The notes under the pieces are model-generated. The model saw only the letters and a program-made list of their open reading frames with translations. It was not told the origin of the DNA and did no database searches. A stretch of DNA of 64,000 nt from Alphaproteobacteria bacterium (lineage in GTDB: Bacteria > Pseudomonadota > Alphaproteobacteria > Sphingomonadales > Sphingomonadaceae): NCBI GenBank assembly GCA_018970445.1, contig JAGWWF010000001.1, positions 124,001 through 188,000 on the forward strand, read 5' to 3'. Position numbers and translations under genes: made by a program. Below are positions 6,628-59,481 of the stretch, piece by piece; position 1 is the stretch's first letter; every line of letters starts with the position of its first letter.

Positions 6628-7563
6628 ATGATCGACACGTCCACCCCCGGCCCCCTGGCCATCACGGGCGCCACCGGCTTTGTTGGCCGCCGCGTGCTGG
6701 CGCTTGGCGCCAGGACGTCTGGCCGGCCGCTGCGTGCCCTCACCCGCCGGCCACAACCGCCGCAACCCGGCGTGAAATGGGTGGTGGGTGATCTGAACGA
6801 CAGCAACGCGCTGGCCCGGCTGTGCAGGGGCGCCGATGCCGTGCTGCATATCGCCGGCGTGGTGAACGCACCCGATGCCGACGGCTTTCGCATCGGCAAC
6901 GCCATCGGCACGGCCAATGTGCTGGCGGCGGCTGCCACGGTGCCCCGCTTCGTCCATGTCTCCAGCCTGGCCGCGCGCCAGCCCCGGCTGTCGCTCTATG
7001 GCGCCTCCAAGGCCGAGGCCGATGCCAGCGTGATGGCCAGCCGGCTGGATTGGGTGATCGTGCGCCCGCCCGGCGTCTATGGCCCCGGCGACGCCGAAAT
7101 GCGCGACCTGTTCCGGCTGGCGCAGCGCGGCCTGGGCCTTGCCCCCGGCGGGCCGGATGCCCGCATCAGCCTCATCCATGTCGATGATCTGGCCCGCGCC
7201 CTGCTGGCGCTGGCGACAAGCGGGCCAAGCCGTGAGATCATCGAACTTGACGATGGATCAGGCGGTTATGCCCATGCCGATCACGCCGCCGCCATTGCCC
7301 GCGCCCTGGGTCGCCCGGCTGTGCGCATGATCCCGGTGGGGGCGGGGCTGCTCAACGCCGCTGCCGGCATCGCCACCCTCATCGCCACCATCCAGGGCCA
7401 GTTGCCCAAGCTGAGCCGCGACCGCGCGGGCTATCTGGCCCATCCCGATTGGGTGGCGCGCGGCGGCAATGAACGGCTGGCCGGCCTGTGGCAGCCGCAG
7501 GTGGGGCTGGATGATGGCCTGGCCGATACGGTGCGCGATTATCGCGAGCGCGGCTGGCTGTAG
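6628..7563 (+). CDS. NAD(P)-dependent epimerase/dehydratase (extended SDR), candidate ceramide reductase-type enzyme
   Basis: ITGATGFVGRRVL Rossmann motif, YGASKAEAD, VRPPGVYGPGD; codirectional with the FAAL gene. Confidence 0.88.
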   Translation: MIDTSTPGPLAITGATGFVGRRVLALGARTSGRPLRALTRRPQPPQPGVKWVVGDLNDSNALARLCRGADAVLHIAGVVNAPDADGFRIGNAIGTANVLAAAATVPRFVHVSSLAARQPRLSLYGASKAEADASVMASRLDWVIVRPPGVYGPGDAEMRDLFRLAQRGLGLAPGGPDARISLIHVDDLARALLALATSGPSREIIELDDGSGGYAHADHAAAIARALGRPAVRMIPVGAGLLNAAAGIATLIATIQGQLPKLSRDRAGYLAHPDWVARGGNERLAGLWQPQVGLDDGLADTVRDYRERGWL

Positions 7564-46231: not shown

Positions 46232-47146
46232 CTATCGCCCGCCGATCACGCCCGCCGGATCAACCGGCGCGCGGCCCCGGCGCAGTTCGAAATGCAATTG
46301 GGGTTCGGCCACGGCCCCGGTTTGCCCGGCGCGGGCGATCACCTCGCCGGCCTGCACGCGCGCACCGCGCGCCACCAGCAGCGCCTCGTTGTGGGCATAG
46401 GCCGAAACCCAGCCGCCGGCATGTTTGATCAGCAGCAGATTGCCAAAGCCGGCAATGGCATCGCCGGCATAGGCGACAACGCCATCCGCGGCGGCGCGCA
46501 CCGCCTCACCGGCGTTGGCCTTCAGATTGACGCCATCGTTGAAGCGGCCGCCGGCCTTGGGCCCAAAGCCGGAAATGATGCGGCCGGGCAGCGGCCAACG
46601 GAAGCGCGGCGCGCTGCCGGTGATGGCCGGCAGCGGCACCGGGCGTTCGGCCGCCGCGCCGGCCAGTGGTGGCCGCACGCCCGGTGCCTCCGATGCCGCC
46701 GGCTGGCCGCCGGTGACGACATCATCGATCGACAGGGAAAAGGCGCGGGCGCGTTCTTCCAGGCTCATCGCTGCCACCCTGGCAGCGGCAGCCTGGGCAT
46801 CGGGCAGCCGCAGGCGCTGGCCCACGGCCAGGACATAAGGGTCCTTCAGGCCATTGAGCGCAATCAGGTCACGCCACGGCACGCCATAGGCGCGGGCAAT
46901 GGCGATGCCGGTTTCGCCGGGGCGCACGGCGTGGAAGCGGCCCTGCGGCGTGATCTGGGCATTGGCGGTGACGGCGCGCGCCACCCAATCGGTGCGTTTG
47001 GCGGGGGGTGGCTTGGCGGGGGCCGGTCTGGGTGGCAGCGGCTTTGCCGGCGGCACCCGCGCCGGCGGCGGCCGTTCGGGCCGGCCGATGATGTTGGCAC
47101 AGCCCGACGCCACCAGCAGCAGCAGCAGGGCCGCCGCCCGCCGCAT
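46232..47146 (-). CDS. LysM + M23 peptidase-domain lipoprotein (NlpD/EnvC-like)
   Basis: Lipobox ASGCAN; LysM-like [31 protein letters not shown]-terminal M23 [21 protein letters not shown]. Confidence 0.92.
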
Positions 47147-53405: not shown

Positions 53406-54416
53406 TCAGCGCAGCTTCAGCGCGGCCTGCACCCTGGCCCAGCTGACCAGCTTGAAATTCTGGGTCGGCACATTCTCGCCATCCTGCGCCACCATCAGGC
53501 CGGCGGGGAAGCGCGGGCCGAAATCACCGGTCATCACCGCGATGCCATCGGTTTCCTGGGTGCCGCCCAACGCACCATCGGCAATGCGGAAACGGCCGGC
53601 AAAGCGGTCATCGGCCAGGGCAAACAGGGCATAGGCGTTGTCACCCTGGCTCGACGCCACCAGCCAGCCGCCGTTGCCGGGGCCGCTGGTGGCAATGGCC
53701 AAGCCTTCGACATCATCGAACAGCCGGGCCTTGTCCACCCCGGCCAACTTGATCGGGGTGGCGCTGCCGCTTGCCCGCGCGTCCCAGCGCCAGATGCCGA
53801 CATCCTCTTCGGCGACATAAAGCCGGGCGGTGCGCGGATCGACCACGCAGCCTTCGGACTGGCTGGCCAGCTTCAGCGTCCGCACGATGCGGCCGGTGGC
53901 GGTCTTCGTGTCCAGTTCGATCTGCCGGATGCTGCCATCCTTGATGACGATGAAGGCGGTCAGCGCGCCCGGTGTCGCCCACAGGCACATGCCATAGGCT
54001 TCGCCGGCACCGGCCGGCACCCGGCCCAACGGCACCAGCCGCGCGGCAGCGGTGTCGAGCCGGAACAGCGCGATGTGGGCCTGGGCGTTGTCGCTGCGAT
54101 CACTGGCGGCAACAATCACCCCGGTCGGCGTTTCGACCAGATCGACATTGTTGACCCGGCCGGCATTGTTGAAATCGCGCACAGTGCCGGCCAGATCATA
54201 GACATACAGGCCAGCCTGCTTGTCCGTCCCCACGATCAGGCTGGCAACCGGATTGGCAGCGTTGCGCCAGATCGCCGGATCATCGGCGGCATCGTCACTG
54301 GTCTTCACCGCTGCCGTTTCGCCATCGGCGGTGACGCTGGCCGTCTCAACGCCGGGTTTGGCGGCCGGCGGCGCGCAGGCGGCCAGCAGCAGCAGGATGG
54401 GCAGGATGGCGCGCAT
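53406..54416 (-). CDS. Beta-propeller phytase, lipoprotein
   Basis: Lipobox LLLLAACAPP; DDAADDPAIWRNAANPVASLIVGTDKQAGLYVYDLAG, NNVDLVETPTGVIVAASDRS, VVDPRTARLYVAEEDVGIWRW. Confidence 0.93.
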   Translation of the reverse strand: MRAILPILLLLAACAPPAAKPGVETASVTADGETAAVKTSDDAADDPAIWRNAANPVASLIVGTDKQAGLYVYDLAGTVRDFNNAGRVNNVDLVETPTGVIVAASDRSDNAQAHIALFRLDTAAARLVPLGRVPAGAGEAYGMCLWATPGALTAFIVIKDGSIRQIELDTKTATGRIVRTLKLASQSEGCVVDPRTARLYVAEEDVGIWRWDARASGSATPIKLAGVDKARLFDDVEGLAIATSGPGNGGWLVASSQGDNAYALFALADDRFAGRFRIADGALGGTQETDGIAVMTGDFGPRFPAGLMVAQDGENVPTQNFKLVSWARVQAALKLR

Positions 54417-54427
54417 GGGGTTGGCCC

Positions 54428-55912
54428 TCACTTTGGCGTGACAAACACCGGATTGGCATAAAACCACAGATCGCTCCACGGGTCTTCGCCCTTGGGATCG
54501 CCGGCGGGTTCCAGTTCGGCCGTGCTGGTGCCGCGCACGCGCAGATAGATGGGGCCGGTGACGGACGCGATGCGGTGCGTCATCGTCAGCATTTCGCCGT
54601 CGCGGGTCCAGTCGGCCGCGGTGAAGCGGCGGGCGACCGCGGTGCCGGTGGTGATGGCCGTGGTGCGATCCACCACCGGGCCGGTGATGCTGCCGATGAT
54701 CAGATCGACGCGGGCGACGTCGGGTTTGCGGCCGCCGGCGTTGGCCGCCGCCGGATCGCGCAGGCGGATCGTCACCTCCAGCGGCTGGCCCTTGCGCGGG
54801 CTGATCGTGCCGCCGATGCCGGCCCTGGCCTTGCCGCTGCTGGCAATCACCTCCACCTCGCTCACCAGATCGCCGGTGACGACGAAGATTCGCCCAGAGC
54901 GCAGGCCATCGATGATGTCGGCATGGTCTGGCCGCGCCTGCACATAGGTCTTGCTGTATTCGCCCGGCCAGAAATCATTGCCGCCATCGCGCCAGTTGGC
55001 GTGGCTGTCGGATGTGGCGGTGATGAACCAGCGCCGGCCTTCGGCCAGCATCGAATCCCAGAAACCGCCCAGGATCGCCGTCATCTGATCAAAGCCGCCC
55101 AGCGTGGGGGCGCGGCCATAGCCGCCGCGGTTGCCGGTGGGATCGGGGCTGCCATCGGGCTTTATGGCGCCGGCCTGGTGGCCCGGTGCGCCTTCCATGC
55201 CGATGGCGACGCGCGGCGCGGTGTCGTTCCAGTTGCGGAATTCGGCCGGGGTGTACAGGCCCCAGGCAAAGGGCGCGGTGGCCGAACGGCTGGGGTGGTT
55301 GGCGATCAGCACCGGCGGTGCCTTCTGGTCGCGCATCAGTTTCAGCGCATCGATCATGCGGCCTTCGCTGTTCCAGTCCTTGTTGGCCGGCCACGGCTCC
55401 CGGTGGGAAAAGCCGGATTCGATGGCGCGCAACTGCTCGCGCTCGTCGCCGGTGAAGGGGATGATCAGGCTGCTGTGGTCGCCGGCCGGCGTATCGAATT
55501 CCATGCCATAGAAGATCAGCAGTTCCGGCACGGCGGCGCGGGCCTGGTTCACCGCCGGCCAGGCCTGTTGATAATTCAGCTTGCTGTGGTTGGGGCCGCC
55601 ATGATCGGTGCTGACCATCCAGCGCAGGCCGAACTGGCGGGCCATTTGCGCGTTCTTGACGATGGCATAACGGCCATCCTTGCCCAGCAGCGGAATCGGC
55701 GCGGTTTGCGGGCTGTTGGGATCGGTTTCGTAATCGGCGCTGAACTCGGAATGGATATGGTGATCGCCCGGCAGCCACTGCCGGCCCCTGGCCGGAATCG
55801 CCCCGGCCGTGGGCCTGTTGCGATACTGGGCCGCCAGACCACCATGGCCATCATGGGCAAGGGCGGGCGAAACGACGAAAGCGGCCCACGCCGCCAGAAG
55901 GATCAAGCGCAT
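54428..55912 (-). CDS. Secreted PHP-like metal-dependent hydrolase (CehA/McbA-type)
   Basis: Signal peptide; WLPGDHHIHSEFSADYETDP, WMVSTDHGGPNHSKLNYQQAW, TATSDSHANWR. Confidence 0.85.
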   Translation of the reverse strand: MRLILLAAWAAFVVSPALAHDGHGGLAAQYRNRPTAGAIPARGRQWLPGDHHIHSEFSADYETDPNSPQTAPIPLLGKDGRYAIVKNAQMARQFGLRWMVSTDHGGPNHSKLNYQQAWPAVNQARAAVPELLIFYGMEFDTPAGDHSSLIIPFTGDEREQLRAIESGFSHREPWPANKDWNSEGRMIDALKLMRDQKAPPVLIANHPSRSATAPFAWGLYTPAEFRNWNDTAPRVAIGMEGAPGHQAGAIKPDGSPDPTGNRGGYGRAPTLGGFDQMTAILGGFWDSMLAEGRRWFITATSDSHANWRDGGNDFWPGEYSKTYVQARPDHADIIDGLRSGRIFVVTGDLVSEVEVIASSGKARAGIGGTISPRKGQPLEVTIRLRDPAAANAGGRKPDVARVDLIIGSITGPVVDRTTAITTGTAVARRFTAADWTRDGEMLTMTHRIASVTGPIYLRVRGTSTAELEPAGDPKGEDPWSDLWFYANPVFVTPK

Positions 55913-55936: not shown

Positions 55937-55970
55937 ACGGGCCGCCACCCCCAAGGGAGCGGCGGCCCGT
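55937..55970 (-). terminator. Intercistronic hairpin, possible attenuator/partial terminator
   Basis: Perfect 10-bp arms acgggccgcc (55937-55946) and ggcggcccgt (55961-55970) just after the TonB receptor stop; no poly-U. Confidence 0.55.
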
Positions 55971-55980
55971 GAAGACCGGA

Positions 55981-58830
55981 TCAATAGGTGACGCGGATAC
56001 CGCCGGTGTAGCGGCGACCGAAGGTTTCCCGCTCGATCGAGCGGGCATCATTGCCAACGAAGCGGCGGCCGGGGCCGTTCAGCATGTTGGACAGATCGGC
56101 ATAGATTTCGAAGTTCTTGGTGATGGCATAACGGGCCGAAATGTCGAGCTCGCCATCGGCGGCCCAATAGAAATCACCACCCACTGCCGGGTCGCCCAAG
56201 CCGTCGATCCAGCTGGAGCGATACTGATAGGAGACGCGGGCCGAGAAGCCGTATTTTTCATAATAGGGGCCGACGTTCAGCACGATATCGGAGGTGCCGG
56301 GGAAGCGGACCTTGTCACCCGACGGGGTGACAGCTTCGCTGCGGTTGAGCGAGACGTTGGTCTGGATGCCGAAGCCGCCCCACCAATGATCTTCGCTCAG
56401 GAAATTGTCGAGCTGGATCTGGGCGGCGGCCTCGATGCCATAAACCTTGCCGCTGCCGCCGTTGAGCGTGGTGGAGAAGACATAATCGGCCCGGTTGACG
56501 CCGTTGGAATTCAGGATGTCCAGCCCGAACTGGCGGGTGGCACCGAACAGCACGTCGCTGACATCCTTGTAGTGGGCGCCGAGCATGAAGAAGCCGCCGC
56601 TGCGCGGATAATATTCCCAATACAGGTCAACACCCTTGGTCTGTTCCGGCTTGGCATCCGGGTTGCCGCCCGACACGGTGAGGTTGGCATCGTTGAAGGT
56701 GAAGTTGGGGCGCAGCACCGGATAATCCGGGCGGGCGGCGCCGGTGTTGAACGACAGGCGCACCTTCATTTCGTCGGTGGCGTTCCAGTTGATGTGCAGG
56801 CTGGGATAGATCTGGGTGAAATCCCGGTTGACCGTGTTCAGCAGGTTCACCGGGCCACCAGGCACGGTGGCGCGGAAGGCGGTGGACTGGTTGGTGACAT
56901 GTTCAAAGCGGGCACCATAGACTATGCTGCCCCAATCAAACTTGGTCAGGCCCATGGCATAGCCCGACCACACCTGTTCGGCGACCTTGTAATAATTGTT
57001 GTTGTTGAAGTTGTAGGCCGCAAACGGTTCCACGGCGCGCACGGCGTCGATGATTTTCTGCTTGCCGAAATAGGGGAAGGTGTAACCCAGCTGCAGCTGG
57101 CCCAGATAGGGGTCGGGGATGCTCATCGCGGCCGGATCCAGCGGCAGCGCGGCCTGGGTGAAGATGTTCAGCCCATTGGCCGTGGCGGTGCTGTTCACGT
57201 CGAGCAGGCGTTCATCCACCTCCTTGACGCGGTTGTCATACTGCAGGCCAACGCTGAACTTGGTATCGCCGAACAGGCTGGTTTCGCGGGCGATGTCGAT
57301 GCGGCCGGTGTAGGCATCGGTGGTGTCGATGGCCTTCTGGCCGCGCACGCGGGTCAGGCTGGTGGGGAAATCGGCGATGGACAGCACCCGATCCCCGCGC
57401 GACAGCGTGCCATCGGCGGCGCGCAGCGTGCGATACAGCTCGACCACCTGGTTCTGCGGGTTGGTCAGATCATAGAACACCGTCGGCCGGCTGGTGGCAG
57501 TGGCGCCGTTGGTGCCAAAACCGGGGCTTTCATAGTTGAGCTGCGCCGGGAAGCTGCGATCATCCTTGGACTGGGTGTAGTTGCCGCGCCAGCTCACCGT
57601 CCAGCCATCGAACTTGTGATCGCCGCCGATGGTGTTGATGAACACCGATTGCTTGAATTCGCGGCTGAGCAGATTGGCGTTGATGTCGATGCCGTACACG
57701 GTGCCGCGGAACGGCGTGTTCACGCAGGCATCGGCATAGCCAGTGGTGTTGGGGGCCAGCACGTTGCTGGCGCAGGCGGTGTTCAGGTTGGGCACGCGGC
57801 CTTCCTGGTCATCAAGATCGAAGATATAGTTGGAGCGCAGCTCGTTGTCGGTGAAGGCCGAATAGATCGAGGTGACGAACATCTTGTTGTCACTGTCGGG
57901 TGCCCATTCCAGCCGGCCCGACACGCTGTAGTTGCGGCGGGTCAGGCGATAGAGCTTGTTTTCGGTTTCACGCGCCCACACGCGACGGGGGCCGGTGGCG
58001 GTGTCCACAAAGCTGTTGGGGTTTTCGCCGGTGCCAAAGGGGCGCAGATCACGGCTGACGGTTTCCCAATCGGTCTCGATATTGTCGGTCGCCATGGTGC
58101 GTTCATAGAAGCTGCCCGACAGCACCGCGCCGATTTCGCCGATGCCGGTGTTCCAGCGATCCGAAATCACGCCGGTGGCTTCATATTCCATGCCGCCGCC
58201 CAGATCGACATAACCGATGCCGCCGCGGCCCTGCATGTGCAGGCCCTTGTAGTCAAAGGCCGAACGGGTGATGACGTTGATGTTGCCGGCGATGGTTTCG
58301 GCGGTCATGTCCGGCGTCACCGCCTTGCGCACGACCACCTGGGTGGCAATCGCCGACGGGATCGAATCGAAGCGCGCATCGCGGCCTTCCGGCGAGATGA
58401 CGTTGATGCCGTCGAACGACAGCGTCGTCCAGTTCAGCGGCGCACCACGCAGGTTGACATAACGGGCCTGGCCCTGGTCACGCTGCACGGCCACGCCGGG
58501 CAGGCGGGAAACGGCCTGGGCGATATTCTGGTCGGGCAGGCGGCCCACGGCGTCGGCCGACAGCACGCTGACCAGCTGGTCGCTGTTCTTCTGCACCAGC
58601 AGCGCGGCGCGTTCCGATTCGCGGATCGGGCGTTCGCCGGAAACGACGATTTCACCATCTTCGGTGGTGACGGTCTCGCCAGCGCGCGAACGGGTGGTGT
58701 CCTGTTCGGCCGGGGCGGCGGCCGCCTGTTCGGCGGCAGCCATCACCTGCGCCATGGCGGGTGTCCCGGCCAGGCTGGCCAGCAAGGCAAAACGAACGGC
58801 ATTGCGGCGATGCGACGAGGAAATGATCAT
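55981..58830 (-). CDS. TonB-dependent receptor linked to phytase
   Basis: Signal peptide; plug VVSGERPIRESERAALLVQKNSDQLVSVLSADAVGRLPDQNIAQAVSRLPGVAVQRDQGQARYVNLRGAPLNWT; C-terminal FGRRYTGGIRVTY. Confidence 0.95.
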   Translation of the reverse strand: MIISSSHRRNAVRFALLASLAGTPAMAQVMAAAEQAAAAPAEQDTTRSRAGETVTTEDGEIVVSGERPIRESERAALLVQKNSDQLVSVLSADAVGRLPDQNIAQAVSRLPGVAVQRDQGQARYVNLRGAPLNWTTLSFDGINVISPEGRDARFDSIPSAIATQVVVRKAVTPDMTAETIAGNINVITRSAFDYKGLHMQGRGGIGYVDLGGGMEYEATGVISDRWNTGIGEIGAVLSGSFYERTMATDNIETDWETVSRDLRPFGTGENPNSFVDTATGPRRVWARETENKLYRLTRRNYSVSGRLEWAPDSDNKMFVTSIYSAFTDNELRSNYIFDLDDQEGRVPNLNTACASNVLAPNTTGYADACVNTPFRGTVYGIDINANLLSREFKQSVFINTIGGDHKFDGWTVSWRGNYTQSKDDRSFPAQLNYESPGFGTNGATATSRPTVFYDLTNPQNQVVELYRTLRAADGTLSRGDRVLSIADFPTSLTRVRGQKAIDTTDAYTGRIDIARETSLFGDTKFSVGLQYDNRVKEVDERLLDVNSTATANGLNIFTQAALPLDPAAMSIPDPYLGQLQLGYTFPYFGKQKIIDAVRAVEPFAAYNFNNNNYYKVAEQVWSGYAMGLTKFDWGSIVYGARFEHVTNQSTAFRATVPGGPVNLLNTVNRDFTQIYPSLHINWNATDEMKVRLSFNTGAARPDYPVLRPNFTFNDANLTVSGGNPDAKPEQTKGVDLYWEYYPRSGGFFMLGAHYKDVSDVLFGATRQFGLDILNSNGVNRADYVFSTTLNGGSGKVYGIEAAAQIQLDNFLSEDHWWGGFGIQTNVSLNRSEAVTPSGDKVRFPGTSDIVLNVGPYYEKYGFSARVSYQYRSSWIDGLGDPAVGGDFYWAADGELDISARYAITKNFEIYADLSNMLNGPGRRFVGNDARSIERETFGRRYTGGIRVTY

Positions 58831-58917
58831 GAGTTTGCGCCCCAGTTGGCCGGCGAGGAGGAACCGGCGACGTGGCGGGGCAGTAGTGACGCTTCATGAC
58901 GTTGAGATATCATTTCA

Positions 58918-58935
58918 ATGACAGGGTGATTACAG
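58918..58935 (-). promoter_or_regulatory. Candidate PhoB box CTGTAAT-cacc-CTGTCAT
   Basis: Reverse complement of atgacagggtgattacag; 7-4-7 arrangement, 13 of 14 repeat positions match CTGTCAT x2; 87 bp upstream of the receptor start. Confidence 0.72.
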
Positions 58936-59001: not shown

Positions 59002-59481
59002 TCACGCCAGATGACGAAGGACCCACAGCAGCATGCCGGCCGCAATGGCCACGGCATAGGGCAGATCAGCCCCCGGCCGGAACAGGCGCGGCGGATTGTC
59101 GCCGGCAAGGCCGGCCAGCGCCAGGCCACGGCGCAGCAGGATCAGCGCCAGTGCCAACCCGCCGCCGGCCAGCGCAATCAGCAGCACCTGTTCCGCCAGC
59201 GTGGCCAGGCTGGCCCAGCAGGCGCAACCGGTCATGATCTTGACATCGCCGCCGCCCAGCCAGCCGCGCGCAAAGGCCAGCAGGCCAAAGGCGAAGAAAA
59301 TGCCGCCAGCCGCGGCATGGCTGGCCCAATCATGGCCGGGCGTGCCCAGGCCATAGAGGACAGCCGCGACCAGGATCAGGATGGTGAGCGTATCGGGGAT
59401 TTCATAGCGCCACAGATCAAAGCCGGCCGCCGCCACCAGCGCCAGCGCCAGCAGCGCAAGGCCGATCGCTGCCAGCGTCAT
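59002..59481 (-). CDS. cpaA: Prepilin peptidase (CpaA/TadV, A24)
   Basis: DLWRYEIPDTLTILILVAAVLYG and FARGWLGGGDVKIMTGCACW. Confidence 0.9.
   Translation of the reverse strand: MTLAAIGLALLALALVAAAGFDLWRYEIPDTLTILILVAAVLYGLGTPGHDWASHAAAGGIFFAFGLLAFARGWLGGGDVKIMTGCACWASLATLAEQVLLIALAGGGLALALILLRRGLALAGLAGDNPPRLFRPGADLPYAVAIAAGMLLWVLRHLA

Follow-up and report, generated by a model that had tools for sequence, protein, structure and literature searches.

Between a prepilin-peptidase gene (59002-59481) and the ATG of a TonB-dependent receptor gene (58830) lies a gap of 171 bp that holds an array of four head-to-tail PHO 7-mers, set at 11-bp steps on the minus strand of the 64-kb stretch of DNA analysed here (the window). 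There are strong grounds for regarding this array (58896-58935) as a four-unit PHO operator with TACTGC at 58880-58885 as its putative -10 element, which would make it a promoter of the class activated by phosphorylated PhoB. Because the sequence tests described below were passed and the genome encodes a matching PhoB, control by this regulator of the receptor, metallohydrolase and phytase genes that follow is very likely.

Read along the minus strand from 58935 to 58880, the site is CTGTAAT-CACC-CTGTCAT-TGAA-ATGATAT-CTCA-ACGTCAT-GAAGCGTCAC-TACTGC. The first-pass annotation had described a PHO box of two CTGTCAT-like 7-mers, CTGTAAT-CACC-CTGTCAT at 58918-58935; its 7-mers, 4-nt spacer, strand and coordinates stand, and so does its distance of 87 bp to the receptor ATG when recomputed on the sequence, but the box takes in only half of the array. 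The weak points of the array are its first spacer, CACC, which lacks the usual A-run, and its poor third 7-mer. The features of the site and of the genes that it precedes are collected in the table.

Table. Features of the putative PHO promoter and of the receptor-metallohydrolase-phytase unit (positions are those of the window).
Feature	Position	Strand	Basis or remark
PHO 7-mer 1, CTGTAAT	58929-58935	-	Reported in the first-pass annotation
PHO 7-mer 2, CTGTCAT, full consensus	58918-58924	-	Reported in the first-pass annotation
PHO 7-mer 3, ATGATAT, degenerate	58907-58913	-	11-bp phase; overlaps proposed TATCTC
PHO 7-mer 4, ACGTCAT	58896-58902	-	11-bp phase; within the window's top pstS-model match
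Predicted -10, TACTGC	58880-58885	-	Exactly 10 nt after 7-mer 4; spacing as in pstS and phytase-unit promoters
TonB-dependent receptor (TIGR01782), first gene of unit	55981-58830	-	Family match
Strong hairpin, without T-run, between receptor and metallohydrolase genes	55937-55970	-	Hairpins of unrelated sequence at this junction in G108 and G383
Secreted CehA/McbA-type metallohydrolase (PHP-like), start MRLILL	54428-55912	-	70.8 bits, under the curated cut-off of 80
Phytase (PF02333), predicted lipoprotein, LLAAC lipobox, start MRAILP	53406-54416	-	Family match

The frequency of comparable sites bears directly on their significance. Equally good matches at random frequency across the genome were a possibility that the first-pass annotation had itself raised, and matches proved to be rare: the exact pattern CTGTNATN4CTGTNAT occurs only twice in the 3.03-Mb genome, at the window site and upstream of dnaA, against about 0.03 occurrences expected from base composition. 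Across 201 genomes of the family, which gene content suggests to be Sphingomonadaceae, the strict pattern CTGTCATN4CTGTCAT is found 30 times, several of these directly upstream of pstS, versus once for the pattern read backwards. The CACC spacer, which the window site has in common with the dnaA site and G028, could have marked another regulator; this reading was rejected, as spacers vary freely over the 30 strict matches.

A three-unit PhoB-box model trained on pstS promoters from 26 genomes outside the genus has its top match in the window at 58896-58924 (19.2 bits), where 0.34 matches of at least 19 bits are expected per genome. A 58-column pstS model that combines the array with the -10 likewise places its top match in the window at this site (58878-58935, 16.0 bits), and a simulation of 18 million positions yielded none of at least 15 bits. 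Genome-wide, a degenerate three-unit pattern has 33 matches versus 11 for the reversed control, at places that include pstS, the window site, TonB receptors, olsB and dnaA; because the genome-wide scans were done by pattern, the rank of the model's own match in the genome is not exact. Almost every pstS box scores higher than the window site, both with the three-unit model (21.7-46.6 bits in the training set versus 19.2) and with the 58-column model (28-40 bits for the genus's own pstS versus 16.0), suggesting weaker or later induction of the phytase unit.

The spacing of the -10 element is revealing of the promoter layout. In textbook E. coli PHO promoters the -10 lies about 10 nt past the last repeat, and the pstS promoters of the clade consist of a four-unit array, a gap of 10 nt and a TA-containing -10. 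More specifically, the genome's own pstS promoter (L039:5380-5440) reads CCGTAAC-ATGTCAC-CCGTCAT-CCCTCAT, followed after 10 nt by TAGGGC, a layout identical to that of the window site. In 25 of 36 phytase-unit promoters, the window's included, the offset between the three-unit array and a TA is 10 or 21, and any other offset accounts for at most two cases; the two favored offsets differ by one 11-bp register. TATCTC, proposed earlier as the -10, overlaps the third 7-mer at a spacing that is not conserved, and the conserved TA offset in pstS and phytase-unit promoters therefore makes it an unlikely -10. No minus-strand promoter emerged at the array site in a simple sigma-70 scan, in keeping with a promoter that depends on an activator and has no -35.

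The distribution of the array among related genomes follows that of the phytase. Receptor homologues were taken at 1e-150 from the 201 genomes, and 20 were compared, leaving out the window's own and that of L020, which is cut off by a contig end. With an array called at 10 bits or more on the coding strand, all 12 receptor genes that adjoin a PF02333 phytase have one, versus none of the eight without a phytase (Fisher p 8e-6); permuted-column models gave a mean of 0.09 at those receptors. Two of the receptors (L058, L062) adjoin a metallohydrolase without a phytase and have no PHO array, and thus the metallohydrolase alone is no mark of phosphate control. Relatedness among the receptors was considered as the source of this division. 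The receptors unlinked to a phytase are indeed more distant, but in the 40 further loci described below many receptors share only about 25% identity with that of the window, and arrays precede phytase-linked receptors as distant as this, which argues that the array follows the phytase and not one receptor lineage. The same objection is answered by G169, a genome of the same genus in which an array directly precedes a metallohydrolase and a phytase without a receptor; this locus had been scored automatically as array-less because only the region just before the phytase was scanned.

A second set of 40 phytase loci, drawn almost entirely from genomes new to the analysis, was assembled ahead of any scan. 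The unit promoter bears an array scoring 10 bits or more in 27 of them, versus about 0.5 expected, and 13 have none at that threshold. Receptor-first units carry a coding-strand array in 18 of 28 cases, versus 0.18 in controls, with two more on the other strand; among units scanned before the phytase itself, seven of 12 have an array, most of them divergent. Elsewhere in the same 40 loci there were 12 matches in 954,582 strand-bases. In L184 (G383), a second strong array (27.9 bits; 6788-6827 in phytase-strand coordinates) lies just downstream of the phytase, pointing away from it, and probably serves another Pho-controlled gene.

The signalling genes that this regulation would call for are present in the genome as one complete cluster, phoR-pstSCAB-phoU-phoB. 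PhoB passes the equivalog TIGR02154 with 344 bits and PhoU passes TIGR02135; since PhoR and PstS score under their family cut-offs, their names rest on gene order and best family. The recognition helix of PhoB, RTVDVHIRRLRKA, is identical to that of E. coli PhoB in the 1GXP alignment. In the unit itself, the receptor and the PF02333 phytase lie on one strand with the CehA/McbA-like gene in between, and the GGGG followed by ATG at the receptor start recurs in two close relatives. The phosphate-starvation role that the first-pass annotation had proposed for these genes gains support at the sequence level from the independence of the model, the rarity of matches, the permuted controls, the tracking of phytase, the -10 spacing and the matching PhoB.

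From these features we infer PhoB binding, induction at low phosphate, cotranscription and the substrate of the receptor, in the following sequence of events. Low phosphate would be sensed by PstSCAB, PhoU and PhoR, giving phosphorylated PhoB, dimers of which would bind head-to-tail to the four 7-mers in place of a -35 and direct RNA polymerase to TACTGC, 10 nt beyond the array. Transcription would start at about 58873 and read through the receptor, metallohydrolase and phytase genes. Phosphate would then be freed by the phytase, either on the cell surface or within the periplasm, and the receptor, judging by linkage only, would take up inositol phosphates or products of their breakdown.

That CTGTCAT-like words fell together here by chance in a 68% GC genome, leaving an array with no function, is extremely improbable. 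A single two-unit match in one 64-kb window could arise in this way, and a loose two-mismatch scan of the window gave three matches versus 1.17 expected; against it stand the rarity of such sites in the genome, an array with four units in phase and a conserved -10 spacing, and the company that the array keeps with phytase across genera, and the division between phytase-linked and unlinked receptors together with the 40-locus test already refutes it at the sequence level. The finding that many bound PhoB sites in E. coli are inert (PMC10294691) counts against a functional reading. Binding by a different OmpR-family regulator with a similar direct-repeat preference is highly unlikely: direct-repeat binding is shared widely in that family and the tests here are of sequence, but the model was built from pstS promoters, the defining PhoB target, the PhoB of this genome keeps the E. 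coli recognition helix, and the array tracks phytase.

An array that serves mainly the receptor, with the enzymes beyond the hairpin expressed mostly from elsewhere, is unlikely, if less so. In three species a strong hairpin does stand between the receptor and metallohydrolase genes, those of G108 and G383 being at the equivalent junction but of unrelated sequence; these hairpins have no T-run, however, the window contains no other PHO array before the enzymes, and the array of G169 stands directly before the metallohydrolase and phytase. With PhoB control of the whole unit as the preferred reading, the hairpin may govern how much receptor is made relative to the enzymes, or may separate receptor expression from that of the enzymes.

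PHO-like arrays were also observed outside phytase units. The only perfect consensus PHO box in the genome lies on the minus strand between rpsT and dnaA (L041:7030-7069; G000:C36, ~47030-47068) and reads CTGTCAT-CACC-CTGTCAT-CACA-TTGACAC. Of 28 related genomes, 11 have an array of 10 bits or more in the rpsT-dnaA interval, pointing towards dnaA, and arrays within 700 bp occur in nine of the 28, versus 0.37 for permuted models. Severe phosphate deprivation brings about a fall in dnaA in Caulobacter (PMC11208175), and inhibition of translation clears DnaA there (PMC10723716); a direct PhoB route to dnaA was not found in the literature searched. It is conceivable, if somewhat doubtful, that PhoB directly adjusts dnaA transcription in phosphate starvation while turning on phytate scavenging. 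These recurring arrays may be more novel than the phytase-unit array and, if functional, would connect phosphate starvation with the control of replication by way of transcription.

The highest PhoB-model score among the genome stretches scanned, 28.1 bits, belongs to an array at G000:C11:117801-117850 (L125) that points against both flanking plus-strand genes, near a probable propionyl-CoA carboxylase cluster named by eye. PHO-like repeats also stand before an ornithine acyltransferase gene (G000:C36:32643-32703, L129), the product of which has OlsB as its best match (312.5 bits versus a cut-off of 320), and suggest phosphate-controlled ornithine lipid synthesis.

If borne out, the promoter ties an uncharacterised TonB-dependent receptor to phosphate scavenging, and the clade-specific PhoB layout of four 7-mers, 10 nt and cTA can serve to predict the Pho regulon across this family of bacteria. 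The PHO box of E. coli, of the pst and phoA type, is built, like the window array, of CTGTCAT-like 7-bp repeats in direct orientation, spaced by 4 nt to give 11-bp units (PMC4415409); the window array differs in having four units, among them a poor one, a spacer that lacks A/T and a GC-rich cTAc/g -10 like that of the clade's pstS. The pstS promoters of the genome and its family (30 loci) share with the window the four-unit array, the 10-nt gap and the TA-containing -10, but have higher scores and A-rich spacers. The PhoB regulon of Caulobacter crescentus includes TonB-dependent receptors and a phytase (PMC11208175), a likeness to the window unit at the level of gene content only. In Flavobacterium johnsoniae, of a different phylum, the phytase Fjoh_1367 (PF02333) adjoins the TonB receptor Fjoh_1368 and phosphate depletion induces both (PMC8115612); here the likeness to the window unit, a phytase of the same Pfam family beside a TonB receptor, is again one of gene content. 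Given these published cases of PhoB-regulated or phosphate-responsive phytases and receptors, the finding belongs to a known kind, and the window array is an expected, solid instance of a well-known control element.
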